A DNA stretch of 36,065 nt, taken from a virus. The notes under the pieces are model-generated. The model did not search any database, had not been told where the DNA came from, and worked only from the letters and a program-made list of their open reading frames with translations. Position 1 is the stretch's first letter; the number at the start of each line of letters is the position of its first letter. Made by a program: the position numbers and the translations under genes. The DNA lies in IMG/VR virus record IMGVR_UViG_3300035216_000705, positions 1 to 36,065 of that record; one strand, 5' to 3'. This document shows positions 1 to 36,065 of the stretch, piece by piece.

Positions 1-1706
1 TGGTTTCTACAAATGCATCTGGTGAATTAGGAAGATTTGATGCTGATGATAATTGGATAGTTGATACCTATACTGCACAATCAGGTGGTGATATTTTAAT
101 GGAGTCTACTTTAACTGGTAAAGAAACCGTTAGCGGTAAGAATGGTACAACTGGGGCATTTTTTAATTCATCCACAATTGCTTCAGTACATGATTTTAAT
201 GGTGTGTTAACGGAAGGTCGTGGTTTATATATGTCTTATAATTCTCCTGTGACGTCTGAAGGAACTAATATACTACAATGGCTGTCTAAGAGTAATAGCA
301 ATTATTATGGTAGTCATATTCAGACGGGGGGTGGTACTGCAATTTTAGCAACAAGATTTATTGGATCTAACATTTCACTTGCAAATAGAACAAACACAGT
401 AATTAATATTGGTCAAACAATAGGATTTACTGGTGCAGGAACAAATCCTCAGAGAGTAGGATTATATTCTAATGTTAAAGATTCACAAGTTAGTGCTAAT
501 GCTGGTACAATTATAGCAGACTTAATTGCTGATAGTGGTACATGGGCTGGTTATTTTGTAGGTTGTGTTAATATAGATCAAGGTGGATTAGTATTACCTT
601 CATCAACTTTTGCAAATAGACCGCTATGTAATGATGTGAGTGGAGGAAATATTGCACAAAGAACATTATGGATTAATGATGCTAACGGTCATTTATACCG
701 AGGGGTTGTTGATGTTGAAGCAACAGCAGCAGCAACTACATTAAACCAATTAACCGATGTAAATATTAGTGGAGTCCCAGCAGACGATAGTTTACTTGTA
801 TATAATTTAACTGGTGGTTATTGGGAAAATGCAACTTTAGCTGCTTATAATTTAAATGCAGTACAAAGCGGTAATGATGCTGACTTATCTTTAGGTGATG
901 GTACTTCATCAACAAGCGATGTTACATTTATTGCAGGAACTGGTATTACACTTCTTGTTGACTCTACTTTAGATACTATTACAATAGACTCTACTGGTGG
1001 GGTTGGTGCGCAAGGACCACAAGGACCGCAAGGTGCACAAGGACCACAAGGACCGCAAGGTCAACAAGGACCACAAGGACCACAAGGTGTACAAGGACCA
1101 CAAGGACCGCAAGGTGCACAAGGGCCACAAGGACCGCAAGGTCAACAAGGACCACAAGGACCGCAAGGTGCACAAGGACCACAAGGTGTACAAGGACCAC
1201 AAGGACCACAAGGACCAGCTGAGGCATTAGACGCAACACTTCTTATAGGTAATATTACTAATGGAACTGATATAGCTGTATCTGCTGGTGATGATATAAC
1301 ATTCACAGGGACCTCTAATATTATTGATGGCGCAGGAAGTGGTGGAACTGCTAATCAAACTACCCCATCAGTTTTAACTAGTGATGGTACTGCAATTGCA
1401 TGGAAAGATTTAATGGGTGCAGTGACAGCTAACACTGCAGCTATTGTTGAAATAGGACATCCGCTAGGTAATTATTGTAATATGGGTAATCCAAATGCTA
1501 CTACTACATATACATTTACAAATAATTCTGGTGGTTTTGTAGTTGGAGGATTCGGAAGAGTATTAATTAATGCAGCAACACAACCAATCGTAACTGGAGC
1601 AACACTTATAAAAGGGGATGTATTTTTAACATCTACTGATATGTATATGACTATTCAATATAATGGGCAAGTTACACAATATTGGTTTGAACAAATAGCA
1701 CCGTAA
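1..1706 (+). CDS. Collagen-repeat tail fibre protein, 5' end outside window
   Basis: Tail-fibre or adhesin protein of the virion. The reading frame is open from base 3, well before the first ATG at 99, so the gene is cut by the window edge and the true start lies upstream; about 567 residues are visible. Counting from the ATG at 99, residues 1-300 are Gly/Ser/Thr/Asn-rich with short beta-type repeats typical of fibre shafts. Residues 303-374 are 24 uninterrupted Gly-X-Gln/Ala triplets (a collagen-like triple-helix segment). A C-terminal head follows (375-535), ending in an aromatic-rich stretch. Glycine at every third position and proline-glutamine fill are seen directly; a trimeric shaft is known for collagen-like phage fibres; receptor binding by the C-terminal head is inferred. 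The next gene starts two bases after the stop, so the two are probably translated together. No chaperone-type peptidase domain is evident. Confidence 0.8.
1005..1220 (+). repeat. Collagen-encoding tandem repeat (27-base superrepeat)
   Basis: A run of 24 nine-base Gly-X-Y codon triplets inside the fibre gene. It has a higher period of 27 bases: GXQ-GPQ-GPQ with X = Ala, Ala, Gln, Val, Ala, Gln, Ala, Val through eight units, closing with GPA. The seventh unit is missing one GPQ triplet, an in-frame loss of nine bases that fits slippage or unequal recombination. The low complexity leaves two antisense frames and one further sense frame open, so apparent genes there are artefacts. Confidence 0.95.
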
Positions 1707-1708
1707 TT

Positions 1709-2995
1709 ATGAGAAAAACAATGGCAGGTAGAAGAGCTTCAGTATCTGATGCTTTTCAATTTAAAATTAATACGAATCTTACTAGTGCAGGAAGTAGTAA
1801 TACTTTTGGAATGATATTACCATTCGAGACTGCAACACCAGTGGTGCCACTGGTTCCAATGACTGTAGATTGGGGTGACGGTACAACCACAGTAATAAAT
1901 TCATCTAATTATGTAACAGCAAGGTCACATGTGTATTCAGTTGCAGGCGTTTATGCAATTAGTATAACGGGTGAGATTAGAGGCTGGTCATTTTTTGACA
2001 TGACTCTAGCAGGTGCTAGTGATTCACGTAAAGTTACTAGTATTACAAATTGGGGTAATTTTGAGTTTAGTGAAACTGGGTCATTTTTTGATTGTAGAAA
2101 TCTGACTGATATAGTTTGTGGGGATATCCCTAAGTGGTATTCTGGTGCTGCATTTCAAACGTTTTTACTTTGTGAACTTTTAACAACTATAAACAGACTT
2201 GGTGAATGGGAATTGGGTAGTCAAGTAAATATGAGAGGCATGTTTAGTGGTTGCCATGTTTTGGAATTTGACCCGAGTGTAAGTGGTGGAAAAATTGATT
2301 TTAGTAATTGGGATGTGAGTAATACACAATTAATGGATTTTATGTTTGCTAATTGTAAGCGCATGAATTCTAAAATGTTCCAAGTAACTAGTACAACAAA
2401 TAATTTGACTGGAATGTTTCAGGGTTGCACAGTCTTTGACGCGGCCGGAGGAACAAGTATGGATTCATGGGATGTGAGTAGTGTGGGTAGTATGGAAAGA
2501 ACTTTTATGTCGGCCGTAGCTTTCAATCGAAACATTAGTGGATGGACTACTACTAATTTAAATAACTTAACTCAAACGTTTGCAGGAAATCCTAGTTTTT
2601 CACCAGCTAATGAAATGGCATTTAATCAAAATATTGGTTTATGGGAGACTAAATTAGTTACTAGCTTTAATGGTATTTTTGTGAATTGTAGTTCATTTGA
2701 TCAAGATTTGAGTAACTGGGATTTACAGGCTGTTAGTACAATCGGTACTGCTGGTGGTGGTACTCAACCAATGTGTTATAATGTGGTTTCTGCTTTTCAT
2801 GTTCCATTAGAATTAAGTACTGCTAATTATGATGCAGCATTAATTGCATGGGACACTGGATCTTATCCATCAATACCATCAGGTATATGGGCGTTTGGTT
2901 TAAGTAAATTTTCAGCATCACCTTCAGCTGCTGCTAGTGCACGAGCTAGCTTAATAACTAAGTGGGGTGGAATATCAGATGGTGGTCCAATATAA
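1709..2995 (+). CDS. PKD + DUF285 (BspA-like) receptor-binding/adhesin protein
   Basis: Probable surface-exposed adhesin of the virion, 428 residues. Residues 51-95 carry a PKD-type beta-sandwich signature: a Trp-Gly-Asp-Gly turn followed by His-x-Tyr, then Gly-x-Tyr-x-Ile. Residues about 165-350 hold degenerate DUF285 repeats, with recurring 'NWDVS', 'SWDVSSV', 'FNxNIxxW' and 'FDQDLSNWD' units separated by Met/Phe-rich 'MF..C' segments. The end (residues 363-428) resembles the usual close of BspA/DUF285 proteins, 'NYDAALIAW...AR..L...W.GISDGG'. DUF285 proteins are common on Bacteroidota and Mycoplasma surfaces; in a phage the module is most simply a receptor-binding or decoration protein. 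There is no signal peptide, which fits a cytoplasmically assembled virion protein. It starts two bases after the collagen fibre gene. Domain calls are good; virion location is inferred from context. Confidence 0.75.
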   Translation: MRKTMAGRRASVSDAFQFKINTNLTSAGSSNTFGMILPFETATPVVPLVPMTVDWGDGTTTVINSSNYVTARSHVYSVAGVYAISITGEIRGWSFFDMTLAGASDSRKVTSITNWGNFEFSETGSFFDCRNLTDIVCGDIPKWYSGAAFQTFLLCELLTTINRLGEWELGSQVNMRGMFSGCHVLEFDPSVSGGKIDFSNWDVSNTQLMDFMFANCKRMNSKMFQVTSTTNNLTGMFQGCTVFDAAGGTSMDSWDVSSVGSMERTFMSAVAFNRNISGWTTTNLNNLTQTFAGNPSFSPANEMAFNQNIGLWETKLVTSFNGIFVNCSSFDQDLSNWDLQAVSTIGTAGGGTQPMCYNVVSAFHVPLELSTANYDAALIAWDTGSYPSIPSGIWAFGLSKFSASPSAAASARASLITKWGGISDGGPI

Positions 2996-5576: not shown

Positions 5577-7385
5577 ATGAAATTTAGTGATAAAATATCT
5601 GATCTTAATGATGCAATGTTTCCGAGTCCTGATAAAAACACGCCTTCTCTTATAGGTGCATTTGGTGGTGAATCATTTGGTTTTGCAAAAGATGTTGCAG
5701 CAGGCTACTCAGCTGGGTTTTATCAAGAGTCTGCACAAGCAGATGCAGTTACCGTGCCTACTGGTATGGCTGAAGCTCTAATTCCTAAATCTATTGCTAA
5801 TTCTTATGCATTATTTAATTATCAAGGATTTAACGGCGGTTTTGTAAATGCAGCACAAAGTGGTTATTTTGATCAAGAAGGAAATACACTTATGGGTGGT
5901 AAACAAGCTCATAATGTTTCTTTAACTAAGATTATAAGTTTCTTTGATACAAACTATGAAAAAATACGTTATAAGCCTGCAGATTTTTTATATTCTAAAT
6001 ATTACAAAAAAATACCAGTTAATCATTTAATAACATTAAGAAGATTTCCAATGCCTGTGCCTGATAATATTTATGATTATAAAGAAAAGCAAGCTCCTAA
6101 AAAAGCAGGAGAAAAAGCTAAGCCTGAAGCAGAAAGTGCGTACACCGCAGGTGTTACTGCCGTTACTTATTTAGGTGAGACTGCTGGTAATACATTAGAA
6201 GATTTATTAACAATGTCATTTGGTACAAATTGGAAAGAAATTGAATCTGAAATGGAAGCAATCAGTTCAGGTGACGGTGGATATACATCACAACCTTTTT
6301 ATCAAAAATCTGGTGCAGTTGGAAAGTCTATAATTGATTTTACTAAAGGTGTATCTGGAGGTGAAAAATTTAGAAAAGGTTTAAATACTACTGAAGATGC
6401 CTTTGGTACTACTTATGCTAATTTTGTAATAGGCCCAGTTAATGTTGTAGATAAAACAACAACTAGGGATAGAGGATTAAAGTTTGCAAATGATATGAAA
6501 TTAAAATTTGAATACGAACTCAAATCTTTATCATATGTTAATCCTAAAATTGCTATGATTGATGTTATGAGTAATATGTTAACAATGACAACTAATAATG
6601 CTCAATTTTTTGGAGGAGGCCATAGATACTATGGATCTGCTGGTGCTGTTGCTAATCAGTTTGGTGATATTGCTAAATTAAGAAAAGGTGATTTTTCTGG
6701 TTATATAGGAACTGTAGTTTCTGATGTTGAAACTGGAATGAAAGATAAGTTTGGAACACCTGAAGGTGGTTTTAGTGCTAGTAGTGTTTTAGAAGGACTG
6801 CAAGGTGCAGGTAAAACATTATTAACTAATATGTTAGGTGGATTTTTAAGTAGTAAAGTTGGCGCAGTAAGTGGAGTACAGGCAACTAAAGCGTTCTTAA
6901 GTGGTGATCCAACTGGTTGGTGGCATGTTACTATAGGTAATCCATTAAATCCAATTGTTATGATGGGTAATATGATTTGTGATAATGCTACTATGACACT
7001 AGGAGCCGGTTTAGGTTATGATGATTTTCCAATGGAAGTAAGTTTTGAATTAGATATAAAACATGGTAAGCCTAGAGATAAAGGTGACATAGAAAATATG
7101 TTTAATGCAGGGCGTGGTAGAATTTATGCATCAGGAGCTGATGCTCAAGATATATTAAATCTTAAAGGATTAGAAGTAAAGAGTTATGGATCAATAAGTG
7201 CAGGTAAATCACAACTTTCATCAACAAATACTCAAAAAAGTACTACAAATACTATTCCAGCTGCCGCTGTTAAAAATGAAAATATTGGTAACATCTCTGC
7301 TGACACTACAGCAGCTAATGAAAGTGGAAATTCTGCAAATGGTGATTATATTGCAAATTTAACCAGTATGATGATAGATTCTTAA
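5577..7385 (+). CDS. Large virion structural protein, baseplate/tail-hub region (602 aa)
   Basis: Probable baseplate or tail protein; not firmly assignable to a named T4 gene. Residues 149-165 carry a 'NHLITLRRFPMPVPDNI' segment. Near 460-520 there is a 'WWHVTIGNPLNPIV' segment followed by an acidic/aromatic stretch and 'KPRDKGDIENMFNAGRGRIY'. As far as I remember, this combination recurs in large phage tail/baseplate proteins, but I cannot confirm it by search. The N-terminal 110 residues are Gly/Ala/Phe-rich and probably mobile; the last 70 are Ser/Thr/Asn-rich and low complexity. No catalytic motif is seen. It heads the LysM-hub-spike gene group, which is the main argument for a baseplate role; a tail-tube-initiator-like position is possible. 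Confidence 0.65.
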   Translation: MKFSDKISDLNDAMFPSPDKNTPSLIGAFGGESFGFAKDVAAGYSAGFYQESAQADAVTVPTGMAEALIPKSIANSYALFNYQGFNGGFVNAAQSGYFDQEGNTLMGGKQAHNVSLTKIISFFDTNYEKIRYKPADFLYSKYYKKIPVNHLITLRRFPMPVPDNIYDYKEKQAPKKAGEKAKPEAESAYTAGVTAVTYLGETAGNTLEDLLTMSFGTNWKEIESEMEAISSGDGGYTSQPFYQKSGAVGKSIIDFTKGVSGGEKFRKGLNTTEDAFGTTYANFVIGPVNVVDKTTTRDRGLKFANDMKLKFEYELKSLSYVNPKIAMIDVMSNMLTMTTNNAQFFGGGHRYYGSAGAVANQFGDIAKLRKGDFSGYIGTVVSDVETGMKDKFGTPEGGFSASSVLEGLQGAGKTLLTNMLGGFLSSKVGAVSGVQATKAFLSGDPTGWWHVTIGNPLNPIVMMGNMICDNATMTLGAGLGYDDFPMEVSFELDIKHGKPRDKGDIENMFNAGRGRIYASGADAQDILNLKGLEVKSYGSISAGKSQLSSTNTQKSTTNTIPAAAVKNENIGNISADTTAANESGNSANGDYIANLTSMMIDS

Positions 7386-7396
7386 AAGATAAAGAT

Positions 7397-7924
7397 ATGG
7401 ATATAAAAGTATTAGCATTAAAAAATAGACTAACCATCGAAAAAACAGGGGAACAGTATCTTGATTTAACTGCTCCTTCGTTTACGTTTATTCCAGAGCA
7501 AGGTATTAAAGCATTACATTATGTTTTAGCTAATGAAGCAGGCAGGGTTGATAAAATTTGTGATAGATATTTTGGCACTGGAGAATATATTGATGCAATA
7601 TGCATAGTTAATAATATTTTTAATCCTTTTAGTGTACAAGAAGGTGATGTATTAGTTATACCTAATCTTAATCAAATAGACCTTTTATATACACGACCTA
7701 ATGCAGCATCTAGACCAAGTGTAACATTATCACAGTATGTGAATACTGATAGACAAAGTATATTAGATCAAAATAGAATACAAAGATTAACAGAAAAAGC
7801 AAAAACTAAAAAGAACGGAGTTAAATCACCTATACCACCTAATATGATGCAACAAGGACAGGTTGCTAAAACATATGCTGGGGGTAAAATTAAACTTGGT
7901 GCTAATATGAATACAAGAAATTAG
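7397..7924 (+). CDS. LysM-domain baseplate protein (gp53 / gpX-like)
   Basis: A 175-residue protein with a LysM-like module at about residues 50-90: 'DKICDRYFGTGEYIDAICIVNN' in two parts, then 'GDVLVIP', the usual LysM finish. In contractile phages, short LysM proteins (T4 gp53, P2 gpX) bind at the baseplate/hub rather than cleave peptidoglycan, and no catalytic domain is attached here. The C-terminal half is basic, Gln/Asn-rich and probably extended. It starts 11 bases after the 602-residue protein and is followed 12 bases later by the hub-like protein, the same neighbourhood as gpX and gpD in P2-type phages. It ends in TAG. The LysM call is fairly safe; equivalence to gp53 versus gpX is open. 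Confidence 0.75.
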   Translation: MDIKVLALKNRLTIEKTGEQYLDLTAPSFTFIPEQGIKALHYVLANEAGRVDKICDRYFGTGEYIDAICIVNNIFNPFSVQEGDVLVIPNLNQIDLLYTRPNAASRPSVTLSQYVNTDRQSILDQNRIQRLTEKAKTKKNGVKSPIPPNMMQQGQVAKTYAGGKIKLGANMNTRN

Positions 7925-9446: not shown

Positions 9447-10907
9447 ATGCCGTTAATAGATTATGCAAATCCAGGTGGAAGCCAAGCATTACAGCAATTA
9501 GCTGGGCCATTCGGTCCTTTACTAGGGCCTGGTGCATCATTCCCTTCAAGTTATGATTTTGCAAAAAGGTTTGTTAATAGTGCACAAACTGCCGAAGGAA
9601 GTGGTAGTAATGGTGTTACTGCATTAGATGATCCAACATATTTAGGTTTTCAGTTAATGTTTGATCCCTTTAGTCCATTATTTAATGGGGCAGGTGTTGG
9701 TGATCCTGATATATCTAATACAGATTTGCCGGGTAGCCAAGGAAATGGAAATCTAGGAAGCTTAGCATCTGGATTTGGTATTCCTAATACCTCAGAACAA
9801 ACCTCAGGCAGTGGTTATGAAAAATATGAAAGTGCTGTTGGTTATTTAGAAAAAGTTGGTGAAGGCAATAGAGCAAAATATTTAAGAGCCTTTATTCAAG
9901 GCATACAAGAAATTAATAGAACTCGCCCATATTATTTTCAAACTATAGAAGGTTTAGATGAGGCGTGGCAGAAAGCAATTGATTTTTCAGTAGATCCTTT
10001 TACAGGTAGTGCTGCTGGTGCTGGTGTTACTATTGGTTGTTTAGAAGCAATAGATTTAAAGTTAACTGCTTTATTTAGTTTATATAAAATGGCAGTTTAT
10101 GATGTTCAATATAAAAGATTCGTTTTACCTAAAAATTTAATGAGGTTTGATGTATACATTTATGTACAAGAAATAAGAAAATTTAAAACAGTAAGAAATT
10201 GGCTAACTACTTTTAATCCTAGTGCTAATGGCGCCGATACTGCAAACTTTACAAATGAAAATACTTCACAAGTAGGATTTAGATTTAATGACTGTATTTG
10301 GGATATGGCTGCAACTGGTAAAGTTTTTGAAAATGTATCTAATACCGGAGGGACTGTAGCTACCACAAGTATTAAGTTTGGATATTCTAATATTGAACAA
10401 GCTTCTCAATTTTCTGGCTATAGTGGTAAACTTAATGATTGGACACAACAACAGACTAGCCAAAAACTAGGAGCAAGAGTTAAAAAGTTTGCTAAAGATC
10501 AATTAGCTAATCAAGCCGAAGGTGCAATTAATTTAGCACAGAGAACAGTTAGTAGTGCTATACAGGGTTTTACTTTAGGAAATGTTTTTGGGGCAAGAAA
10601 TGAAATATTTGCAGCTATTTCAAATCCACAGGCATTGGCTAATGCAGCAGTAGGTGCAGCAGTACAGGCAGGTGAAGGTCTTGCTACAGGAATACAAAGT
10701 GTGTTTAACAATAATCTTGAGGAAATAGGTAATGCATTCGACAGGCCAACAGGTGCAGGTAGTATAATTAGTGAATTGGTTGGTGATAATATTTTTGAAG
10801 CAGCAACAGAAACTACAGAGGCAACAACTATCAGTGTAGGTGGTAATATATTTCCACCTGGCGCAGGTGGCCCACCACTGGAATCAACTAATGTATTTGA
10901 CGGCTAA
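9447..10907 (+). CDS. Putative tail tube-initiator/hub-associated protein (486 aa)
   Basis: Virion protein without a certain name. Residues about 62-80 ('DPTYLGFQLMFDPFSPLF') and 134-165 ('YLEKV...RAKYLRAFIQGIQEI...PYYFQTIEGL') lead into a core with 'GCLEAIDLK' (197-205) and 'LPKNLMRFDVYIYVQEIRKF' (227-246), a beta-strand pattern I associate with tube-like or tube-initiating proteins (gp48/gp54 class). That is family intuition, not a search result. From about 340 onward it becomes Ala/Gly/Gln-rich with helical repeats and a Gly/Pro-rich end. The start follows an A-rich leader. Its stop TAA overlaps the spike's ATG by one base (TAATG), so it is translationally coupled to the spike. Confidence 0.55.
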   Translation: MPLIDYANPGGSQALQQLAGPFGPLLGPGASFPSSYDFAKRFVNSAQTAEGSGSNGVTALDDPTYLGFQLMFDPFSPLFNGAGVGDPDISNTDLPGSQGNGNLGSLASGFGIPNTSEQTSGSGYEKYESAVGYLEKVGEGNRAKYLRAFIQGIQEINRTRPYYFQTIEGLDEAWQKAIDFSVDPFTGSAAGAGVTIGCLEAIDLKLTALFSLYKMAVYDVQYKRFVLPKNLMRFDVYIYVQEIRKFKTVRNWLTTFNPSANGADTANFTNENTSQVGFRFNDCIWDMAATGKVFENVSNTGGTVATTSIKFGYSNIEQASQFSGYSGKLNDWTQQQTSQKLGARVKKFAKDQLANQAEGAINLAQRTVSSAIQGFTLGNVFGARNEIFAAISNPQALANAAVGAAVQAGEGLATGIQSVFNNNLEEIGNAFDRPTGAGSIISELVGDNIFEAATETTEATTISVGGNIFPPGAGGPPLESTNVFDG

Positions 10908-11803
10908 TGGGAAAAGTTAATCCAGCAAATTTTAATGCAGATGATTTACGAACTACTCAGTGGGTAGGTATCGTAGAAGATACTGCTGATGATATCTTTG
11001 AAGGAAGGTGTAAGATTAGAGTGTACGGTAAAATGGACGATCGTGTAGATCCTGAAGATCCTGCAAGTGCATATAAACTTCCTACTGCTGCATTACCATG
11101 GGCAAGACCTCATCAATTAATGTATGGTGGTAGTAATAGCGGTAGTGGTAAATTTGAAATTCCAAAACTAGGATCTGTTGTTAGGCTTACTTTTGATAAT
11201 GGTAATTATTATCAACCAATTTATCATGAAAACATTTATCCTTCAGATGAAACAAAAGCGGAGATAGAAGCATCATATCAAAATTCACACGTATTAATAT
11301 ATGATACTGCATTCGGTTTAACTGGTGAGTTACAAGATGGGGTTTCTGAAGTAGAAAATGAAAGGGAAGGTGAGCACGTAAAGGTTTTCTTTACAGAAGA
11401 AAAAGGATTAATGCTGGACTATACTACAACCGAAGGCCCAACTACAATCAATATAAAACCTGATAATTCTGTTGAAATAATAAATGCTAATGGTGATACT
11501 ATCGTAATGCTTAATGATGGGAATTTAACATTTACACATTCTGCTCAAGTTACAATTAATAGTGGAGCAAATACAGAAATTAATTGCGAAGATGCAATAA
11601 TTAATTGCAAGAATATGGTTGTTAATCATGCATCATCTATAGAATTAGGGCAAGGTGCAACTGAACCATTAGTATTAGGAGACTTAATGACTACTTTATT
11701 TAATGGCCATACTCATATTGGTGATAGAGGTTCTCCAACATCCCCACCGATGCAACCTATGACAGCTGCACAGCTTAGTAAAAAGCAAGTTAAATCATTA
11801 TAA
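10907..11803 (+). CDS. Baseplate central spike protein (gp5/VgrG-type, no lysozyme domain)
   Basis: Membrane-piercing spike, 298 residues. Residues 18-110 form a gp5-type OB domain: 'WVGIVED', 'GRCKIRVYG', 'LPWARP', then 'SGSGKFEIPKLGS' and 'VVRLTFDNGNYYQPIYH'. Residues about 165-255 are short alternating strands with a repeating hydrophobic/Asn/Thr pattern ('INIKPDNSVEIINANGDTI', 'VTINSGANTEINCEDAIINC'), fitting the intertwined triple-stranded beta-helix of spikes. The C-terminus has 'FNGHTHIGDRGSPTSPPMQPM', a common close of phage spike/baseplate assembly V proteins. T4 gp5 carries a lysozyme domain between the OB and helix; here the linker is only about 50 residues and has no lysozyme motif, so peptidoglycan degradation must come from elsewhere or be unnecessary. 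It is coupled to the upstream gene by a one-base overlap. Confidence 0.88.
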   Translation: MGKVNPANFNADDLRTTQWVGIVEDTADDIFEGRCKIRVYGKMDDRVDPEDPASAYKLPTAALPWARPHQLMYGGSNSGSGKFEIPKLGSVVRLTFDNGNYYQPIYHENIYPSDETKAEIEASYQNSHVLIYDTAFGLTGELQDGVSEVENEREGEHVKVFFTEEKGLMLDYTTTEGPTTINIKPDNSVEIINANGDTIVMLNDGNLTFTHSAQVTINSGANTEINCEDAIINCKNMVVNHASSIELGQGATEPLVLGDLMTTLFNGHTHIGDRGSPTSPPMQPMTAAQLSKKQVKSL

Positions 11804-11829: not shown

Positions 11830-12123
11830 ATGGCATTTGTACCAGATATTTTAAAAGAGGCTATGAAGCAAGCATTTATTGCAGGTGAAACTGCAATGGA
11901 GGAAAAGGCAAAGAGTAATATAAGGGATGCAAAAGCAACGGTATCTAATACTGCTATAAAGAAAGCAGGCGGTGAAGCCTTTGCTGAAATTGCTGGCCCT
12001 GCTATTGATGCTTACATAAGATCAGCTACAGTAACCACTATTGTTGCTGGATTAACATCACCGCCATTAGCATACCCTGTAGTTGGTACTGGTGCAGGCG
12101 CACCGGGTGTAGGACTTTCATAA
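11830..12123 (+). CDS. Putative spike-tip/baseplate accessory protein (97 aa)
   Basis: A small protein directly downstream of the spike. The N-terminal 55 residues are helical and charged ('EAMKQAFIAGETAMEEKAKS'). The C-terminal 40 are hydrophobic and Gly/Pro/Ala-rich ('AYIRSATVTTIVAGL', 'PVVGTGAGAPGVGLS'). In T4 the gene after gp5, gp5.4, is a similarly small PAAR tip protein. Here I see no Pro-Ala-Ala-Arg repeats or the metal-binding His/Cys set of PAAR cones, so it is not a recognisable PAAR protein. It may be a tip substitute or an assembly partner of the spike. The Gly-rich tail is not long enough or charge-flanked enough to be a convincing membrane anchor. Confidence 0.55.
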   Translation: MAFVPDILKEAMKQAFIAGETAMEEKAKSNIRDAKATVSNTAIKKAGGEAFAEIAGPAIDAYIRSATVTTIVAGLTSPPLAYPVVGTGAGAPGVGLS

Positions 12124-12215: not shown

Positions 12216-13355
12216 ATGACCGAACAAGAAATCACAATTCAATTAAGTGATGATCCATTTGATACAAAAAAAGTAAAAGTACAAGTTCCACAAGGAGTAA
12301 GACTTATGTGCAATGAAGTATATGCACCTGATGTATTAGCAATGTATGGATTAACAGATGCTACAATAAATAAATCTAAATTAACTGAGGATAGGATAGA
12401 TTATACTACGAGAGGCGCAATATCATTTATATCAGAAGACAGGAGTAGGGCACTGATTGATACTCAGTCTAAACATACGGCTTATTGTGTTTTAACAAAG
12501 GAACCAGATTTTATAGTAGAACAGTTGGAAGTTGGTATGGAAATTGATGTAAAAATTAAGACTAGTAAAACTGGAGATGTTATAGCATCTATTTCTGATG
12601 CCTTAATGGAAGTTAAGATGAAAGAAATTAAAGAAGCAATCGGTAATTCAGCTATTGGGTTTACTGCTAAAGTTAAAGAATTAATTCATGGTGGTTATTG
12701 GGTAGATGTAGCAGGTATTAAATGTTTTATGCCAGGTTCATTAGGAGGTTTGAATAAATTACATGATTTTAATGCAATCGTAGGAAAGGAAATAATTGTT
12801 ATGCCAATTACATTCTCTAAGGAAAAGGATACTATTGTAGTATCTCACCGAGAGTATTTAAGAACCATGATACCCACTACTATAGAAAATCTTAAAGAGG
12901 ATATTAAAGAAGAAAGAAGTGGTATTGTAACAGGCTGTACTAAGTTTGGTGTATTTGCTGAATTTGATGAATGCTTAACTGGTTTAATTCCTAAATCTGA
13001 ACTTACTACTGACTATATTAAATTATTAGAATCTCAATCTATTAAACCTGGTGATGAAATTAAATTTTGGGCTAAGGAAATTATATCAGATAGAAAAATT
13101 ATATTAAGCCAATTAGGACCTAAGGTTGATCTTTGGGATGGCGCTGATGAAAAATATAAACCAATGATGATTACTGAAGGTAAAGTTACTAAGTTAACTG
13201 CATACGGTGCTTTTGTTGAATTAGAAAAGGGTATAAGTGGATTAGTTCATAAATCAAAGCTTAAAAATCGCGAAATTGCTAAAGGTGATGTTATAAATGT
13301 TAAGATTGGTAGTGTGAATGTTAGTGACCGTAAGATTACTATGAACATTGTATAA
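12216..13355 (+). CDS. S1-domain RNA-binding protein (ribosomal protein S1-like, 4 repeats)
   Basis: Binds RNA through tandem S1 (OB-fold) domains; 379 residues. Clear S1 repeats lie at about 233-300 ('GIVTGCTKFGVFAEFDECLTGLIPKSEL...VKPGDEI'-type core, 'DRKIILS') and 318-379 ('EGKVTKLTAYGAFVELEKGISGLVHKSKL...DVINVKIGSVNVSDRKITMN'-type core). A more diverged repeat is at 147-211 ('FTAKVKELIHGGYWVDVAGIKCFMPGS', 'VSHREY' end), and a degenerate one at 64-128. Bacterial S1 has six domains and 550-600 residues, so this is a shortened relative. S1 brings mRNA to the 30S subunit and is a partner of some phage enzymes. Here, a role in translating or protecting late phage mRNA is inferred. It has its own upstream gap with candidate promoter and leader. 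Alternative roles: RNase cofactor, antitermination or transcript stabilisation. It is not structural by sequence. Confidence 0.88.
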   Translation: MTEQEITIQLSDDPFDTKKVKVQVPQGVRLMCNEVYAPDVLAMYGLTDATINKSKLTEDRIDYTTRGAISFISEDRSRALIDTQSKHTAYCVLTKEPDFIVEQLEVGMEIDVKIKTSKTGDVIASISDALMEVKMKEIKEAIGNSAIGFTAKVKELIHGGYWVDVAGIKCFMPGSLGGLNKLHDFNAIVGKEIIVMPITFSKEKDTIVVSHREYLRTMIPTTIENLKEDIKEERSGIVTGCTKFGVFAEFDECLTGLIPKSELTTDYIKLLESQSIKPGDEIKFWAKEIISDRKIILSQLGPKVDLWDGADEKYKPMMITEGKVTKLTAYGAFVELEKGISGLVHKSKLKNREIAKGDVINVKIGSVNVSDRKITMNIV

Positions 13356-13360
13356 CTCCT

Positions 13361-13393
13361 TTCCTGGTTGTAAATATATAAACAAATCAGGAA
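13361..13393 (+). promoter_or_regulatory. Candidate promoter element TATATAAAC inside a weak inverted repeat
   Basis: In the 42-base gap before the amidoligase gene, TATATAAAC (13375-13383) ends 14 bases before the ATG. It is flanked by a six-base inverted repeat, TTCCTG at 13361-13366 and CAGGAA at 13388-13393. The right arm includes AGGA (13389-13392) five bases before the ATG, one of the few Shine-Dalgarno-like strings in the window. If the hairpin formed it would mask that site. There is no U-tract, so it does not look like a terminator. Confidence 0.3.
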
Positions 13394-13397
13394 CAAC

Positions 13398-14690
13398 ATG
13401 TACTCTAACGAACAATTAAATGCAATATACTCTTCCAAGATTGGATTAGAATTTGAATTCTTTGCAAATGAAGGATTAGATGAGGTTAAACATAGCCTAT
13501 CTAATACTTTAAATAAGCAAATCCGAATAGAAGAAAAAGCTCATAGTGAGTTTACTCCTACTGATGAAATCTTTAAACTAGAACCTGATAATTCAGGTGG
13601 AACTGGTATGATTGAATTAGTCACTGGCCCTATGCCTTTTGTTGAATCTAAACTAGTTATAGCAAAAACTTTAAAATGGATAAGAGAAAATGGATCTACT
13701 AGTGATAGGTGTTCCATTCATATTAATGTAGCATTTGATGGAGAAAAATTAGGAACTCCTGTTAATATTTCTAAATTAGACATTGGTAAGTTTGTTTTAA
13801 ATTTTAATGAGGAAAAAGTTTATGAAGCATTTCCAAATAGAAAAGATTCTGTTTATGCTAAGTCCATAAAGTTTATTGTCCCATTAAGTGGAATGACACA
13901 ACCTTCTCCAGAAAAAAGATTATGGAAAAATTATATGTTTGTAACTGAAAAATATTATGGAGTAAATTTTTCAAAGTTACCTAAGAATTATATTGAATTC
14001 AGATATCTTGGTGGAAAGGATTATGAAAAAAGGTATAATACAATATTAGATCTTACTGAACATTTTGTTTTATCTTTATATGATTCTTTAATGAATCCTT
14101 CTTATAATGAACAAGATTTACAAAAACTAGATAATCTTTTAGAAAAGCATAGAACAGTTATACAATCATATAAGGCTTACGATGTATTTAAGAAAAAATT
14201 TCCTGGTATAAGATTATTAGTTAATTTAAATACTAATGACCAGATAATAGAAACTTTTTATCCTAAGATGAGAGAAAAAATATTTGAACTTTTAACTAAA
14301 GCAGGTATGAAAAAAGGTTTAGTTAATTATGATTCTGATACAGGTAAACTACAAGTTAAAGATGCCGAATTAATGAGGTGTTATGAGTTAGCTGGTATTG
14401 ATATTGTAGATAGTAAAATACAAGGTAATCTTATTAAGTGTGATATATTTAATTGTGAATTGATAAATACTTCAATGACTGAGTGTAATTTATTTGGATC
14501 GTCTGATGCACTAGATTGTAAAATAGAAGATTCTTATGTAAGTAAAAATGTAATGTGTAAAGACTCATATGTTTTTGGAATGAGAGGTGTTTTTAGTGGA
14601 GAAATGGATGGTGGAATATTTAGAAAAGGTAGAGCCACTAAACTTGCTAGGTTTGAAAATACCGAAATAATTGAAATAGAAAAAATATAA
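13398..14690 (+). CDS. Amidoligase (GS-fold ATP-dependent COOH-NH2 ligase family) with pentapeptide-repeat tail
   Basis: Predicted ATP-dependent amide-bond-forming enzyme of the Amidoligase_2 (glutamine-synthetase-fold) family, 430 residues. Family-type residues are all present: Glu18-x-Glu20 on the first strand ('IGLEFEFF'), Glu73 in 'IELVTGP', His108-x-Asn110 in 'RCSIHINVAF', and Glu200-x-Arg202 in 'YIEFRYLGG'. These correspond to the metal/ATP-binding Glu and Arg positions of glutamine-synthetase folds. After a helical linker (about 215-330), residues 344-368 form five perfect pentapeptide-type rungs (NLIKC, DIFNC, ELINT, SMTEC, NLFGS), continued by looser rungs to about 420, a right-handed beta-helix module for protein contact. 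Substrate unknown: an amino acid, peptide, cell-wall amine or virion protein. It lies six bases before the next baseplate-region gene, so it is expressed with structural genes. The family call is strong; biological role unknown. Confidence 0.82.
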   Translation: MYSNEQLNAIYSSKIGLEFEFFANEGLDEVKHSLSNTLNKQIRIEEKAHSEFTPTDEIFKLEPDNSGGTGMIELVTGPMPFVESKLVIAKTLKWIRENGSTSDRCSIHINVAFDGEKLGTPVNISKLDIGKFVLNFNEEKVYEAFPNRKDSVYAKSIKFIVPLSGMTQPSPEKRLWKNYMFVTEKYYGVNFSKLPKNYIEFRYLGGKDYEKRYNTILDLTEHFVLSLYDSLMNPSYNEQDLQKLDNLLEKHRTVIQSYKAYDVFKKKFPGIRLLVNLNTNDQIIETFYPKMREKIFELLTKAGMKKGLVNYDSDTGKLQVKDAELMRCYELAGIDIVDSKIQGNLIKCDIFNCELINTSMTECNLFGSSDALDCKIEDSYVSKNVMCKDSYVFGMRGVFSGEMDGGIFRKGRATKLARFENTEIIEIEKI

Positions 14691-14696
14691 AATAGT

Positions 14697-15560
14697 ATGG
14701 CTAATAAGAATACTTATTGTAATGATCCAGAAGAAGCAGCATGCTTAGATGCATTAATAAAAGAAATTAATGATGATTTAACTATTGCTTGCCAAATACC
14801 GTTTACGGTTCCTAAAAAAGAATTGGCTCATATTATCCAAAGAGCTAAGGGATATTTTTATAAAATTTATGAAGATAGTGTAGAGCAGATGTATATTGCT
14901 TTACCTGCGGGTGCTGTAAATAAACCAAATTTTAAACAAGGTGTACCTTTTGGTTCTGGTGCTATTCATGATACAATAACCAATAAAGATAATATTGGTA
15001 ATCCTAGGGGGATAATTCAAATGCCATCTAGAGTTTATTCAGTTAATGATGTATTTGAAATAGGTGGATTTAGTGGAGAGGACGGTGGTTTTGGTAATAC
15101 AAGCTTTAATGCAGGTGATGTTGATTTTTCTATTGATAAATTTATTTATAATGATGTTTATGGTGCAGGTATTGGAAGTGAAAATTTAATGTACTATGTT
15201 GTAAATTCATTATTTATGGATAATGCAAGGCAAGTATTAATTCCACAAATATCATATACTTATAATAGGTTAACAAAGAAATTTAGATTCCAAGGTGAAT
15301 TACCAAAAAGAGCTGTTATATTTGAAATATTTTCTACTATTCCTGACTGTGCATTATTTCAAGATGAAGCATTTGTTAGGTATGTTATAGGCCAAGCTAA
15401 AATACAATTGGCTAGAATCTTAGGTACATTCTCTTTTAATTTACCAGGTAATATAACTATTAATTATGATTTAATTTCTACAGAAGGAAGAGATGAGGTT
15501 GATAGAGTGATTGAAGAAATTAAAAATGATGAAGGTGTTGATTATTTTTTCACTGGATAA
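14697..15560 (+). CDS. Unrecognised structural-type protein upstream of gp25 (287 aa)
   Basis: No named family. N-terminal region with two Cys and 'FTVPKKELAHIIQRAKGYFYKIYEDS' (in two halves, about 37-62), a Gly/Asn-rich middle with little predicted structure (about 80-160), and a well-patterned C-terminal region (222-287) with 'VIGQAKIQLARILGTFSF', 'NLPGNITINYDLI' and an acidic helix. The ordered aromatic/hydrophobic C-terminal pattern suggests a conserved virion protein. Its position between hub/spike genes and gp25-gp6 suggests a baseplate wedge or hub-to-wedge connector, but it could also be a neck or tail-completion protein. It follows the amidoligase gene after six bases; the leader is A-rich (AAAATATAAAATAGT). 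Confidence 0.6.
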   Translation: MANKNTYCNDPEEAACLDALIKEINDDLTIACQIPFTVPKKELAHIIQRAKGYFYKIYEDSVEQMYIALPAGAVNKPNFKQGVPFGSGAIHDTITNKDNIGNPRGIIQMPSRVYSVNDVFEIGGFSGEDGGFGNTSFNAGDVDFSIDKFIYNDVYGAGIGSENLMYYVVNSLFMDNARQVLIPQISYTYNRLTKKFRFQGELPKRAVIFEIFSTIPDCALFQDEAFVRYVIGQAKIQLARILGTFSFNLPGNITINYDLISTEGRDEVDRVIEEIKNDEGVDYFFTG

Positions 15561-15618: not shown

Positions 15619-15981
15619 ATGATTAGAGATATTTATAGCAGAGATGATAAGTCACCAAAGTATAGCGATGATACTTTAGAAGTAAGTGATCCTACATCTC
15701 AGTTAATTATTAAAATTGAAAACTGTCTTTTTACACGAAGAGGAGAGGTTTTAGGAGTACCTAGTTTAGGGGCTAATTTAGATGATTTAATATTTTCTTT
15801 AGTCTTAAATGAAACAGTTATACAAAATACGATCAATAGCCAAATAAGTGCCTATTGTTTGGCTGAACAAGGCGGTTTTAGTATCAATACTACAGTAAGC
15901 TTTTTTTCCACAGCAGAAAGAGATGGATGTTTGGTTGATATTTTTGTAAATGAACAAAGAGTAATAGGAGCTCTTTTTTAA
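15619..15981 (+). CDS. gp25: Baseplate wedge protein gp25-like (GPW_gp25 family)
   Basis: Structural component of the baseplate wedge, also the sheath-initiating subunit in T4-type tails; 120 residues against 132 in T4 gp25. Diagnostic features: an N-terminal segment leading to 'IENCLFTRRGEVLGVPSLG' (residues 33-51), the family's 'lFTr.GE...P.fG' signature, then 'NLDDLIFSLVLNE', a helix with Ile/Asn/Gln, and a final strand pair ('INTTVSFFSTAERDGCLVDIFV'-like, in two parts). The family name 'lysozyme-like' is historical; no lytic activity is expected. It is followed 13 bases later by the gp6-like gene, the gp25-gp6 order seen in many myophages and type VI secretion clusters. High confidence. 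Confidence 0.93.
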   Translation: MIRDIYSRDDKSPKYSDDTLEVSDPTSQLIIKIENCLFTRRGEVLGVPSLGANLDDLIFSLVLNETVIQNTINSQISAYCLAEQGGFSINTTVSFFSTAERDGCLVDIFVNEQRVIGALF

Positions 15982-15994
15982 AATAATAAATTGA

Positions 15995-17851
15995 ATGTCA
16001 TTCTTTAGTAAAACAAGATTAAGAGCAGCAGAATTATTTGGAGACTCCTTTGAGTATCTACAACGTACATATGACCAGGCACGTGAAACATTTACACCTG
16101 CATCACCGTTCGGTCAAATACTTACAGTAGTTGCAAACTTAGGTGAAATGATTTTCTTTTATATAGAAGCAGTCGCTACTGAATTAAATATATCACGAGC
16201 AAGAAATATTGAATCTATATATGGTTTATCTAGACTTACTGGTCATGATCCTACAAGAGGTATATCTGCAAGAGGTATAATTGGATTGCGATTAAATACA
16301 AGTGCGGCTAACCTCGTGCAAGGTGACTACGTTCAGATTATAAACGGTTCTAGTTTTGAAATTGGAAATAATAGCCTAACTTATTTTTTAAGATTTAATA
16401 GCGACTTTATAAGGCTTGAAAAAACAAACACAGCATGGGTTAACGTTGAAGTAATACAAGGTGAAAAGGAAGATCAATCTTTTACTGGATCTGGGTTAGC
16501 TCTACAAAGCTTTAACTTAACCACAAAGGATCCTACAGATCAATTTTTAGTTGAAGTTTTTGTAGATGGTAAATTATGGAAATTGGTTGATTCATTATAT
16601 GATATGAATAGAGGTGAATATACTGCTATGATTAAAACCAGTGTTAATGGTGGTCTAAGTGTATTCTTTGGAAATAATCAATTTGGATACCCTCCACCGT
16701 TAGGCTCTAGGATTAGAGTAACCTATATTAAGACTCGTGGTGTTGCTGGAAATATTGGAGGTAAACAATTAGATATTAAATTTTCTGATGAAGGGAGTGA
16801 TGCATCTGGCCAAGGAATAGATCTTAATGAAGTTCTTTCTTTAAATATTGTAAGAAATCCAAATTTTGGTTCTGATTCTGAAGACCCTGCCTTTACAAGA
16901 TTAATTGCACCTTATCAAAGCAACTCATTTGTATTAGCTAATCCTAATAATTATATTTACTATCTAAGTAAGTATGATTTTTGGTCTTTCATAGATGCTT
17001 ATAATACCAAGAATGATCAGTATCTTGATGACGATAATATTATATACTTATTTTTAATTCCTGATGTAGCTAAAAAATTAACAAGTGACTTAGATTACTT
17101 TAGTGTTCCTGAGGTTGAATTTACAATGACACCTGCAGAAAAAGAACAAACATTAGAAATAATCAATAAAAGCGGTAGGCAAGTAGTAACAGCAGAAGTT
17201 AGAATTAAAGATCCTATTGTTAAAAGATATGCTCTTAATGTAGTTGTGAGATGGTTTGATAATTATGATAAAGATGGCATAAAAGTAGAAATAAGAAAAA
17301 ATTTAGATGAATATTTTTTAACAGTTAATAGAAGAGATAGAATTCCAAAGTCTGATCTTATTTCAATTATAGAAAACGTAGAAGGAATTGATTCAGTAAA
17401 CGTATTCTTTATTTCAGAAGAAAATGAAACTGCTATTAGAGATGGTTTTTATTTTGAACCTGTTTATGGAACTGATCCTATAACCGATCAAAAGGTTTTA
17501 ATTGAAAATAAAAAAATAGTATTATTACCAGAAGAAGATCCTCAATTAGGATTAGATAGTTTTGGTGATGTTGTAATTGGTAATGATGAATTGGCAATAA
17601 TAAGAGGTGGGTGGAAAGATAGAAATGGTACTTATTATGAACCTATACCAGTAAATAATAAAATTAGTTCTTTAAATGTATTCTATAAAGAATCAATTGC
17701 AAACAATCTTTATAATAAAATACAACAAGAAAAATATAATAGTACAAAACGAAACAGAGGTACTACAATAGCAACTGGTGCTAACTCTGCTGGTTTAAAT
17801 ACAGGTAGGTTACAAAATAATCCTACATTAAAAGCACTTAAAGGAAATTAA
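15995..17851 (+). CDS. gp6: Baseplate wedge protein gp6-like (baseplate J family)
   Basis: Ring-forming wedge protein of the contractile baseplate, 618 residues (T4 gp6 is about 660). N-terminal helices contain 'SPFGQILTVVANLGEMIFFYIEAVATE', a hallmark gp6/gpJ dimerisation helix, followed by 'NIESIYGLSRLTGHDPTRGISARGIIGL' (both quoted in pieces). A long beta-rich middle includes 'TYIKTRGVAGNIGG' (about 247-260), typical of baseplate J repeats, and the C-terminal part (about 395-470) has 'VVRWFDNYDKDGIKVEIRKN' and 'IPKSDLISIIENVEGIDSVNVFF'. The last 60 residues are Asn/Thr/Gln-rich and probably disordered. It sits right after gp25 and one base before an 89-residue gene. High confidence in role; exact T4 equivalence is by family and order. 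Confidence 0.9.
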   Translation: MSFFSKTRLRAAELFGDSFEYLQRTYDQARETFTPASPFGQILTVVANLGEMIFFYIEAVATELNISRARNIESIYGLSRLTGHDPTRGISARGIIGLRLNTSAANLVQGDYVQIINGSSFEIGNNSLTYFLRFNSDFIRLEKTNTAWVNVEVIQGEKEDQSFTGSGLALQSFNLTTKDPTDQFLVEVFVDGKLWKLVDSLYDMNRGEYTAMIKTSVNGGLSVFFGNNQFGYPPPLGSRIRVTYIKTRGVAGNIGGKQLDIKFSDEGSDASGQGIDLNEVLSLNIVRNPNFGSDSEDPAFTRLIAPYQSNSFVLANPNNYIYYLSKYDFWSFIDAYNTKNDQYLDDDNIIYLFLIPDVAKKLTSDLDYFSVPEVEFTMTPAEKEQTLEIINKSGRQVVTAEVRIKDPIVKRYALNVVVRWFDNYDKDGIKVEIRKNLDEYFLTVNRRDRIPKSDLISIIENVEGIDSVNVFFISEENETAIRDGFYFEPVYGTDPITDQKVLIENKKIVLLPEEDPQLGLDSFGDVVIGNDELAIIRGGWKDRNGTYYEPIPVNNKISSLNVFYKESIANNLYNKIQQEKYNSTKRNRGTTIATGANSAGLNTGRLQNNPTLKALKGN

Positions 17852-34056: not shown

Positions 34057-34066
34057 TAGAAAAGAA

Positions 34067-36065
34067 ATGCCAATCACTATACAAGAAATAATTGCATCGG
34101 ATACTATTTCACAATTGGTCGATAAGACAAACTTTAACTTTGATCAGTTATTACTGAATGGTGGAGGGCCTCCTGGACCTATTGGTTTACCAGGGCCTAC
34201 TGGACCAGCTGGTGGAAGAGGACCAAAAGGAAGTACATGGTATGAAGATGCTTCACTAACAACACCTGGGGTTAGTCCTAATGTCACAGCACCTACAGTA
34301 ACACCACTAAGTGGGGATTATTATTTACAATTTAATGGTCAAGTTTGGGAATATAATGGGACAACCTGGGTAATCACAACAGTAGATTTACAAGGGCCTG
34401 CTGGGCCATCTGGTACTACTGGTGGATTTGGTTCATTTTTTGGGCAAGGTAGTATTTCTAATTTTAATACAGTTTTACCAACACCAAAGGGAATTGGAGG
34501 TACTGGTGCTAATTTATCAAATGAAGGTATTTTATCTGTTTTGGTTGGTGGTGCCGCGTCTAATACTGATACAGCAGACTCAGGAGTTACGTTAACATCA
34601 GCTTATCAATTAACTGATGCTCTTGCATTGTCAATGGCATCTGATATAGTATCATTAATGGTTCATCAAAAAAATACAGGTTCACGAGCTTTAGTTTTTC
34701 ATGGTGGAGCTGATTCAACTAATAGTGAAAACATGGAACAGAATTCACTAGGTGCACTAAGTGGTATTAAATTAGAAAATGATGATAGATTAACTGTAGA
34801 CGTACCTAAATTAGCTACAATAGTTCCTGGTATGTCTAATGCAGATGTTATAGGATACCAAGTAATTACATCACAAAGAAGTCAGTCTTATAGTTCAGGT
34901 AATCAAATAATAATGTCCAGCGGAAATAATGCAGCACCTTATGGGTTTGCAAATGAAAATTCCAATATTGAAATAACTGTTAATACAGGTTCTTCTGGTG
35001 GTACAGGTAATAAATTTAAATTAGTAACTACTGGTAGTGCTGGGTCTGGTATTTTTGAGATAGGTAATAATGTATTAATAAATCAAGCTCCACAAATAGC
35101 AGCTAACATTAATGCAAATGCAGCATTAACTGCAGGATATATTGATTTAGTTTCAAGTCAAGTTGGTAAAATACAATTGTTGTCAGGTGGTGGTGTTTCA
35201 ATAAATACTGCTAGTAATGCACCGTTTACTGGTAGTATAGATGTAGCAGCAGGAACAGGAGGATTAAATTTATCATCAACAGGGTTAGTATCGATGCTAG
35301 TGAAAGGTACTGCTAATGCTAATACAATGATAATTCAAAATCAATATAATGGTGCCAATAATGCAACTGGTCAACTTTATATAATGGGTAGTAAGGATCT
35401 TGTATTAAAGAAGTCTAATATATCTTCAAACAATGCACCAAGTATAGTATTAAATTATACAAATTCAACAGCTCCACATACTAGATTCGTAGGACACCAA
35501 ACATGGACAAAAGTAGGGACGGCTTCACAAGCACCTATTTCGGCAACTCTTGAAAAATATAATAATTTAGAAGGTGTTGGTTCAACAGCTAGCGCTATGT
35601 ATGAATTAACTGGTCGTAATTCTCTCGTTGATATGACACCTGGGTTTACTTTAAATCAGTGGGAGGGTGGTATACAGAGTATAAGTAATGTACCGGCTGG
35701 TATAGTTAAAATAGATTTAGGTAAAGAAGGTCCTACATCACCAGTCGTTCCTGGATTTGTTAATCCATTATCATATACTATGCAGGCGAGAACTGAGATG
35801 TTTAATAATTCATTAGGAATAGCTATAGAACATACCCCATTTGGTTCGCTCATCCCTTACGAAAGTTTTAGAGCAAATTCTAATCAGACTAGGTTTAGTG
35901 GACCTTTAGTTAAATCACAAACAGTTAATCCAAATAGTACTTTTATGACCGGTGGGTCTGTTACAGCTACACAGAATTATTGCAGTACTATATCCCCAAT
36001 TCCTCCTACTACTGATGGTTTTTGGGGGTTCAATACAGCAACCGCTCAAGGATTAACCAACCCAA
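34067..36065 (+). CDS. Collagen-type tail fibre, 3' end outside window
   Basis: Tail fibre protein truncated by the window edge: the frame is open from ATG 34067 to 36065, giving at least 666 residues. Residues 1-25 form the docking-like block shared with the protein at 22299. Residues 34-56 are a short Gly-X-Y collagen run (GPPGPIGLPGPTGPAGG and on). Residues 57-109 match the small module commonly seen between collagen runs in phage and bacterial proteins ('WYEDA', 'GDYYLQFNGQVWEYNGTTWV'), and a second short collagen piece follows (110-120). The rest is a long Gly/Ser/Asn-rich beta shaft with repeated 'NANAALTAGYIDLVS' and 'GGLNLSSTGLVSMLV' type turns. It starts ten bases after the 1671-residue gene behind GAAAAGAA. 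Receptor binding by the missing C-terminus is inferred. Confidence 0.8.
   Translation, partial: MPITIQEIIASDTISQLVDKTNFNFDQLLLNGGGPPGPIGLPGPTGPAGGRGPKGSTWYEDASLTTPGVSPNVTAPTVTPLSGDYYLQFNGQVWEYNGTTWVITTVDLQGPAGPSGTTGGFGSFFGQGSISNFNTVLPTPKGIGGTGANLSNEGILSVLVGGAASNTDTADSGVTLTSAYQLTDALALSMASDIVSLMVHQKNTGSRALVFHGGADSTNSENMEQNSLGALSGIKLENDDRLTVDVPKLATIVPGMSNADVIGYQVITSQRSQSYSSGNQIIMSSGNNAAPYGFANENSNIEITVNTGSSGGTGNKFKLVTTGSAGSGIFEIGNNVLINQAPQIAANINANAALTAGYIDLVSSQVGKIQLLSGGGVSINTASNAPFTGSIDVAAGTGGLNLSSTGLVSMLVKGTANANTMIIQNQYNGANNATGQLYIMGSKDLVLKKSNISSNNAPSIVLNYTNSTAPHTRFVGHQTWTKVGTASQAPISATLEKYNNLEGVGSTASAMYELTGRNSLVDMTPGFTLNQWEGGIQSISNVPAGIVKIDLGKEGPTSPVVPGFVNPLSYTMQARTEMFNNSLGIAIEHTPFGSLIPYESFRANSNQTRFSGPLVKSQTVNPNSTFMTGGSVTATQNYCSTISPIPPTTDGFWGFNTATAQGLTNP
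34166..34234 (+). repeat. Short collagen-like Gly-X-Y segment
   Basis: Codes for residues 34-56 of the fibre at 34067, a run with Gly at nearly every third position (GPPGPIGLPGPTGPAGG, GRGPKGS). It is more varied in its X and Y residues than the G-P-Q repeat at 1005-1220 and shows no nucleotide tandem repeat, so the two collagen segments are not recent copies of each other. Confidence 0.75.

Follow-up and report, generated by a model that had tools for sequence, protein, structure and literature searches.

What might an enzyme with the fold of glutamine synthetase (GS) be doing among the tail genes of a phage? The question is raised by w16, a gene on a 36-kb virus record (the window, which is the whole of the DNA analyzed; Table 1). 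An earlier note on this DNA had read w16 as an amidoligase with a pentapeptide-repeat tail that may act late in infection, possibly on virion proteins.

Table 1. Features of the window that bear on w16 and its setting
Feature	Position	Strand	Basis or remark
Baseplate-linked protein w9	5577..7385	+	Recurrent megaphage neighbor; identity weak, best Foldseek matches baseplate/tail, none significant
Baseplate-wedge-like protein w10	7397..7924	+	PHROG 7145, E 6.3e-7
gp5-like spike/hub w13	10907..11803	+	PHROG 430, E 2.2e-14
Ribosomal protein bS1 homologue w15, S1 domains	12216..13355	+	PDB S1 chains, E 6e-30; Pfam S1, 2.9e-22; NCBIfam
Predicted hairpin around ATATATA	13361..13393	+	Arms 13361-13369 and 13385-13393
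ATATATA, late-promoter-like motif	13374..13380	+	24 bases ahead of the start codon
Amidoligase with C-terminal beta-helix (w16), 430 aa	13398..14690	+	Open reading frame of exactly this extent; profiles, AF2, Foldseek
GS-fold catalytic domain of w16, residues about 10-235	13425..14102	+	Alignment, AF2 model, profile comparison
Beta-helix (pentapeptide-like) domain of w16, residues about 324-420	14367..14657	+	DSSP on AF2 model; Pentapeptide_4 in 31/58 relatives
PHROG 211 'head-tail adaptor Ad2'-like w17	14697..15560	+	6 bases 3' of the amidoligase gene
gp25-like baseplate wedge w18	15619..15981	+	PHROG 43, E 0.019; synteny
gp6-like baseplate wedge w19	15995..17851	+	PHROG 219, E 2e-24; annotated baseplate wedge in relatives

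Fold, family and active site

The w16 protein is almost certainly a homologue of the GS-fold amidoligases, as the earlier note had proposed. On its own the protein has no Pfam match at E≤1, either to Amidoligase_2 (PF12224) or, by sequence, to the glutamine synthetase catalytic domain, but this silence is a matter of sensitivity, since a relative that is 69% identical to it (L053) and gp196 of Agrobacterium phage Atu_ph07 score 23.1 and 30.2 bits, respectively, against Amidoligase_2, for which the gathering cut-off is 22. Amidoligase_2 is matched at E≤0.1 by 18 of 58 diverse relatives, and a profile-profile comparison of the family with seven phage Amidoligase_2-type proteins gave E 4.5e-6 at a probability of 86.5%, with the motifs in register. 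The AF2 model of w16, made from a 58-row alignment (mean pLDDT 91, pTM 0.85), was matched in Foldseek by glutamine synthetases (E 1e-4), by many annotated phage 'Amidoligase enzyme' models (E down to 1e-10) and by one full-length relative at TM 0.92. A PDB sequence search with the family profile returned pentapeptide and chance chains only, a search of a defense-system library gave no match, and Rfam had no match within the window.

The best named relative in both sequence and fold is Atu_ph07 gp196, annotated 'Amidoligase enzyme', although no beta-helix tail is seen in its alignment with w16. Amidoligase_2 proteins such as Pseudomonas phage LUZ24 gp18 likewise have a predicted GS-type fold and share with w16 the motifs GxExE, DxS, E, HxH/HxN, E, R, Y and ExR in the same order. 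With glutamine synthetase itself, w16 gives no family-level sequence match, and its C-terminal half is different. The E-E, H and ExR positions correspond, E18xE20, H108xN110 and E200xR202 of the window protein being the counterparts of E129xE131, H269xH271 and E357xR359 of E. coli glutamine synthetase.

The residues singled out in the earlier note align with the catalytic positions of the phage Amidoligase_2-type proteins, and its claim that they are intact holds for the window protein and for most of the family. E18, E20, E73, E200 and R202 are invariant in 58/58 sequences, as are G16, H49, D64, S66, G68, K131, E138, R148, Y153, P162, K185, Y186, G188 and N190, whereas H108 and N110 are kept in 55 of the 58 and replaced by QxS in three relatives (L199, L211 and L212) that form one lineage on the tree. 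These three retain the other catalytic residues, and their amidoligase may be an altered or dead enzyme. The window enzyme is apparently intact, its predicted metal and substrate positions being kept. One could nevertheless imagine a non-catalytic protein that retains the fold and serves the tail as a structural component or chaperone, as the conserved place among structural genes, the QxS lineage and the invariant C-terminal residues N310 and R409 would allow. We consider such a protein quite unlikely, given that acidic and arginine positions are invariant in 55 to 58 of 58 diverged sequences, which is what catalysis, and not packing alone, would be expected to preserve.

The C-terminal domain is joined to the catalytic domain by a helical stretch (residues about 235-305 in the AF2 model). 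The model bears out a beta-helix here, as do the Pentapeptide_4 matches obtained for 31 of the 58 relatives (scores, where printed, are below the family cut-off); Foldseek matched the model to pentapeptide proteins at E 4e-3. Of the five rungs described earlier, roughly two turns are supported, by confidently modeled short strands that recur every five residues over about 340-378. The conservation of G406 and G411 next to the invariant N310 and R409 suggests a definite role for this domain; its use as a targeting part or docking surface is a guess. A further frame of 692 aa in the 735-kb record matches the beta-helix domain only (LR756501.1 617794-618408, minus strand).

Gene neighborhood and distribution

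The earlier note placed the gene between spike and wedge genes. The baseplate context stands, but on the spike side the bS1 homologue intervenes. Iterated profiles built from the window genes were used to label 223 loci, of which 87 non-redundant ones were left at 90% amidoligase identity, namely 49 main-lineage and 38 diverged loci. In the main lineage, the order S1 - amidoligase - w17 - gp25 - gp6 is nearly fixed: w17 comes directly next in 48/48 testable loci, a gp25 homologue is found within 1.5 kb in 42 of 44 and a gp6 homologue in 41 of 42, and the S1 gene is a neighbor in 40 of 44. In the window, w17 is probably co-transcribed with the amidoligase gene.

Placement relative to baseplate genes is also not random among the diverged loci, 27 of 38 of which retain w9 or w17/w18 within 4.5 kb. 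Their arrangements, with w9 head-to-head, w9 downstream, or w17 or w18 in other orders, number at least three on the tree. Because related loci are not independent, we argue linkage from the number of arrangements and give no p-value; the chance of lying within 4.5 kb of one given gene in a 600-kb genome is about 2%. In rearranged megaphages the amidoligase gene is mostly found beside baseplate genes, though not the same ones, with the remaining baseplate and S1 genes 48-451 kb away. In megaphage W02, for example, it lies 2.7 kb from w9 and 252, 386 and 451 kb from S1, w17 and gp6, respectively, while in megaphage W05 it lies 2.3 kb from w17 and 48, 167 and 186 kb from S1, gp6 and w9, respectively. 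Atu_ph07 and the 735-kb lineage (L005, L183 and L146) are exceptions, as their amidoligase gene is not beside these baseplate genes. Unlike the window gene, Atu_ph07 gp196 lies beside portal and nucleotidyltransferase genes on the opposite strand; it nevertheless falls inside CDS 170-215, a cluster that together with two others accounts for most virion proteins of that phage (PMC6102473).

The recurrent neighbor w9 yielded a structure model of low confidence (pLDDT 63) and no significant fold match in Foldseek, where most of the top matches were baseplate or tail proteins. When w9, w10, w17, w18 and w19 were read for an acceptor tail, only w17 had a strongly conserved C-terminus (IKxDEGxD), and this conserved end may be structural.

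Since a bS1 homologue adjoins the amidoligase gene in the main lineage, and since phages of Bacteroidetes express a ribosomal protein of their own, bS21, late in infection (PMC9723584), one might suppose that w16 acts on the translation machinery, much as RimK modifies ribosomal protein S6, and works with the phage S1 protein to favor late phage mRNAs. This strikes us as very improbable. In megaphages the S1 gene is about 48-442 kb from the amidoligase gene while the link to w9/w17 stays; several carrier records, which are partial, yielded no S1 gene; and the S1 gene has its own promoter-like motif. The bS1 homologue is in its own right a member of a tail operon, kept there in the main lineage and located elsewhere in megaphage genomes, and it may help translate late mRNAs.

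Several other features of these loci were observed. The slot between the spike and S1 genes (11830-12123 in the window) is hypervariable: it encodes 97 aa here, and in relatives such as L082, L104 and L195 it is filled by 550-670 aa or by two genes. It might hold a spike-tip or cargo gene. In megaphages, a protein of about 550 aa with a weak likeness to DHH phosphoesterases is repeatedly encoded within a few genes of the amidoligase gene (L160:11406-13040 and 22 other diverged loci), and in many megaphages a protein of about 129 aa without family is encoded between the amidoligase gene and w9 (L160:9510-9899, minus strand, and 20 other loci); the latter is a possible partner or substrate of the amidoligase. 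Homing endonuclease genes (PHROG 3339/559) adjoin the amidoligase gene at two loci (L152:8095-9906 and L146:1-1344). The left end of the window (99-2995) carries a collagen-like tail-fiber gene and a gene for a DUF285 (BspA-like) protein, and at the right end (34057-36065) a collagen-like coding sequence apparently runs off.

Relatives of w16 are encoded on at least 480 viral stretches in IMG/VR. Among named phages, tblastn detected them in five distinct huge-phage genomes, which span 462-735 kb, and gave a weak match in Atu_ph07. A scan of a collection of bacterial and archaeal genomes with the alignment found zero relatives at the sensitivity of that scan, and by that test w16 is not a recently borrowed host gene. 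Each of 30/30 long records searched has one clear copy. Homologues of w9 and gp6 but, by a profile search at E≤1, no amidoligase were found in Lak-A2, Lak-B1, Tenacibaculum phages pT24 and PTm1, PAU, MaF61 and MA9V-2, an amidoligase-free group that spans Lak, Tenacibaculum, Flavobacterium and Chryseobacterium phages and PAU. The enzyme is therefore a lineage-specific add-on to this baseplate type rather than a core assembly step. The baseplate type is found mainly in phages of Bacteroidota, and Bacteroidetes are likewise the predicted hosts of the largest huge phages (PMC7162821). The carriers are giant aquatic phages, probably with Bacteroidota as hosts, and we infer that the window phage infects Bacteroidota as well.

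A promoter-like motif within a predicted leader hairpin

The T4 late consensus TATAAATA was tried as the late motif of the window and rejected, as it is not enriched there; the search led instead to ATATATA. This motif precedes the amidoligase gene in 57 of 64 relatives, compared with a mean of 7 and a maximum of 15 in shuffles, and it occurs within 60 bases upstream of the gene in 28/30 main-lineage and 29/34 other representatives, mostly 11-13 bases ahead of the start codon in megaphages. It is also present upstream of w9 (11/13 and 20/20), w15 and w18, and in part w12, and in the main lineage it is hardly ever found upstream of w10, w11, w13 or w19-w24, a pattern that likely marks transcription units. 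Genes of the same phages served as positive and negative control: ATATATA is upstream of 12 of 16 full-length gp23-type capsid genes, compared with 2 of 25 DNA polymerase B genes (Fisher p 1.6e-5). By this association ATATATA appears to be a late-promoter-like element, and its presence at capsid rather than DNA polymerase genes suggests that expression of the amidoligase is probably late.

In the window the motif lies within a predicted hairpin, the 3' arm of which covers the TCAGGA ahead of the ATG. Compared with shuffles, the hairpin has a median z of -2.0 for the amidoligase gene in the main lineage, with 15 of 30 representatives below -2, and no other gene of the cluster has a median z below -1.0. 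In a sister lineage, a 12-bp helix is 87% paired and has 14 two-sided compensated changes versus 6.9 in shuffles, and sliding the helix out of register leaves far fewer pairs. In one freshwater sublineage (L050, L053, L055 and L059) the hairpin is degraded, being weak or gone, and in the megaphages it was not seen.

A late-promoter-like motif within a hairpin over the translation start region is also the design of the T4 gene e, soc and gene 49 leaders, and in gene e the start region is hidden in long early transcripts but not in those initiated at the late promoter within the hairpin (PMC3014915). The leader of w16 has the corresponding feature, with compensatory changes in the sister lineage, the promoter role being assigned by association. 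It differs from the T4 leaders in having ATATATA where T4 has TATAAATA and in preceding a different gene. If the gene e mechanism applied here, read-through transcripts from upstream would fold into the hairpin and yield little enzyme, whereas transcripts started at ATATATA would lack the 5' arm and be translated. The amidoligase would then be present only late in infection, and by this analogy late-only synthesis may be envisaged.

Candidate substrates

In the searched literature, phage amidoligases are known as annotations and none has a demonstrated substrate, in agreement with the statement of the earlier note that no function is described for such an enzyme; that statement has to be qualified in one respect, as the Amidoligase_2 proteins of podoviruses are predicted to modify peptidoglycan (PMC5498523, PMC10580990). 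We found no description there of a late, tail-linked subfamily bearing a beta-helix and this leader. Extending the peptidoglycan prediction to w16 would make it a late cell-envelope enzyme that couples the stem peptides of peptidoglycan, or some other envelope carboxylate, to an amino acid or amine, thereby blocking superinfection or tuning lysis, and it is in keeping with this that T4 gene e, with its equal leader design, is a lysis gene (PMC3014915). The genetic setting makes such a role improbable, however. The podovirus genes (LUZ24, phiEco32 and RIO-1) adjoin genes for GATase, COOH-NH2 ligase, ATP-grasp and cyclotransferase proteins, partners that the window gene lacks. GATase_6 is missing from 29/30 long records, six of these being full GenBank entries for huge or jumbo phages, and is not adjacent to the amidoligase gene in the sole record that has it; relatives of the LUZ24 COOH-NH2 ligase, GATase, RimK and GGCT do not occur near the amidoligase gene in the loci. 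Moreover, the LUZ24 gene is upstream of the replication genes and not among the tail genes, and no known lysis gene was recognised beside the amidoligase gene. The window gene is further set apart from the LUZ24 type by its late tail-gene context, its C-terminal beta-helix and its sub-cut-off Pfam score.

A metabolic enzyme that makes a small amide, for nitrogen metabolism or as a special metabolite, could also be considered, given that aquatic jumbo phages of Bacteroidota are reported to carry glutamine synthetase as an auxiliary gene (PMC12619734). We hold this to be rather unlikely, since by Pfam the window protein is not a glutamine synthetase, and the extra beta-helix, the company of tail genes and the late-type promoter motif all speak against it.

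The explanation that we favor, tentatively, is that w16 is a GS-fold, ATP-dependent amidoligase made late along with the virion proteins and modifies a tail protein. Late timing, linkage to tail genes and the position of gp196 within a virion-protein cluster favor a substrate in the assembling tail, and absence of the enzyme from related phages with the same baseplate points to an added modification, such baseplates being assembled without it. Lysis and host takeover are also served by late genes, and late timing is therefore no proof of a virion substrate. The least certain steps concern the chemistry: during tail assembly, the amidoligase may act on a carboxylate of a tail or baseplate protein, either by joining an amino acid or amine to it or by cross-linking it, with the beta-helix as a possible docking surface for the substrate. 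Counted against a tail-protein substrate are the lack of an amidoligase in the Lak, Tenacibaculum, Flavobacterium and Chryseobacterium phages and PAU, the location of the gene in the 735-kb lineage and in Atu_ph07, and the loss of H108/N110 in three relatives. The proposal of late action, perhaps on virion proteins, is thus upheld by the promoter-like motif and the baseplate linkage and weakened by the phages that have the same baseplate without the gene and by the one megaphage lineage in which the two are unlinked. It is possible, though doubtful, that the enzyme makes a covalent change to a tail or baseplate protein, or cross-links it, while the virion is being assembled.

Should it do so, it would be the first GS-fold enzyme known to act on a virus particle, and amide ligation would join the few known covalent modifications of virions. 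The ATATATA motif, as a putative late promoter, offers an entry point for studying how late genes are transcribed in huge Bacteroidota phages. With its single copy, late-type control and recurrent w9, w17, gp25 and gp6 neighbors, the subfamily narrows the search for a substrate; its carriers number hundreds of large phages, with the 735-kb record among them, and in these an amidoligase step that has not been described for any phage may act on tail proteins or on the dying host.
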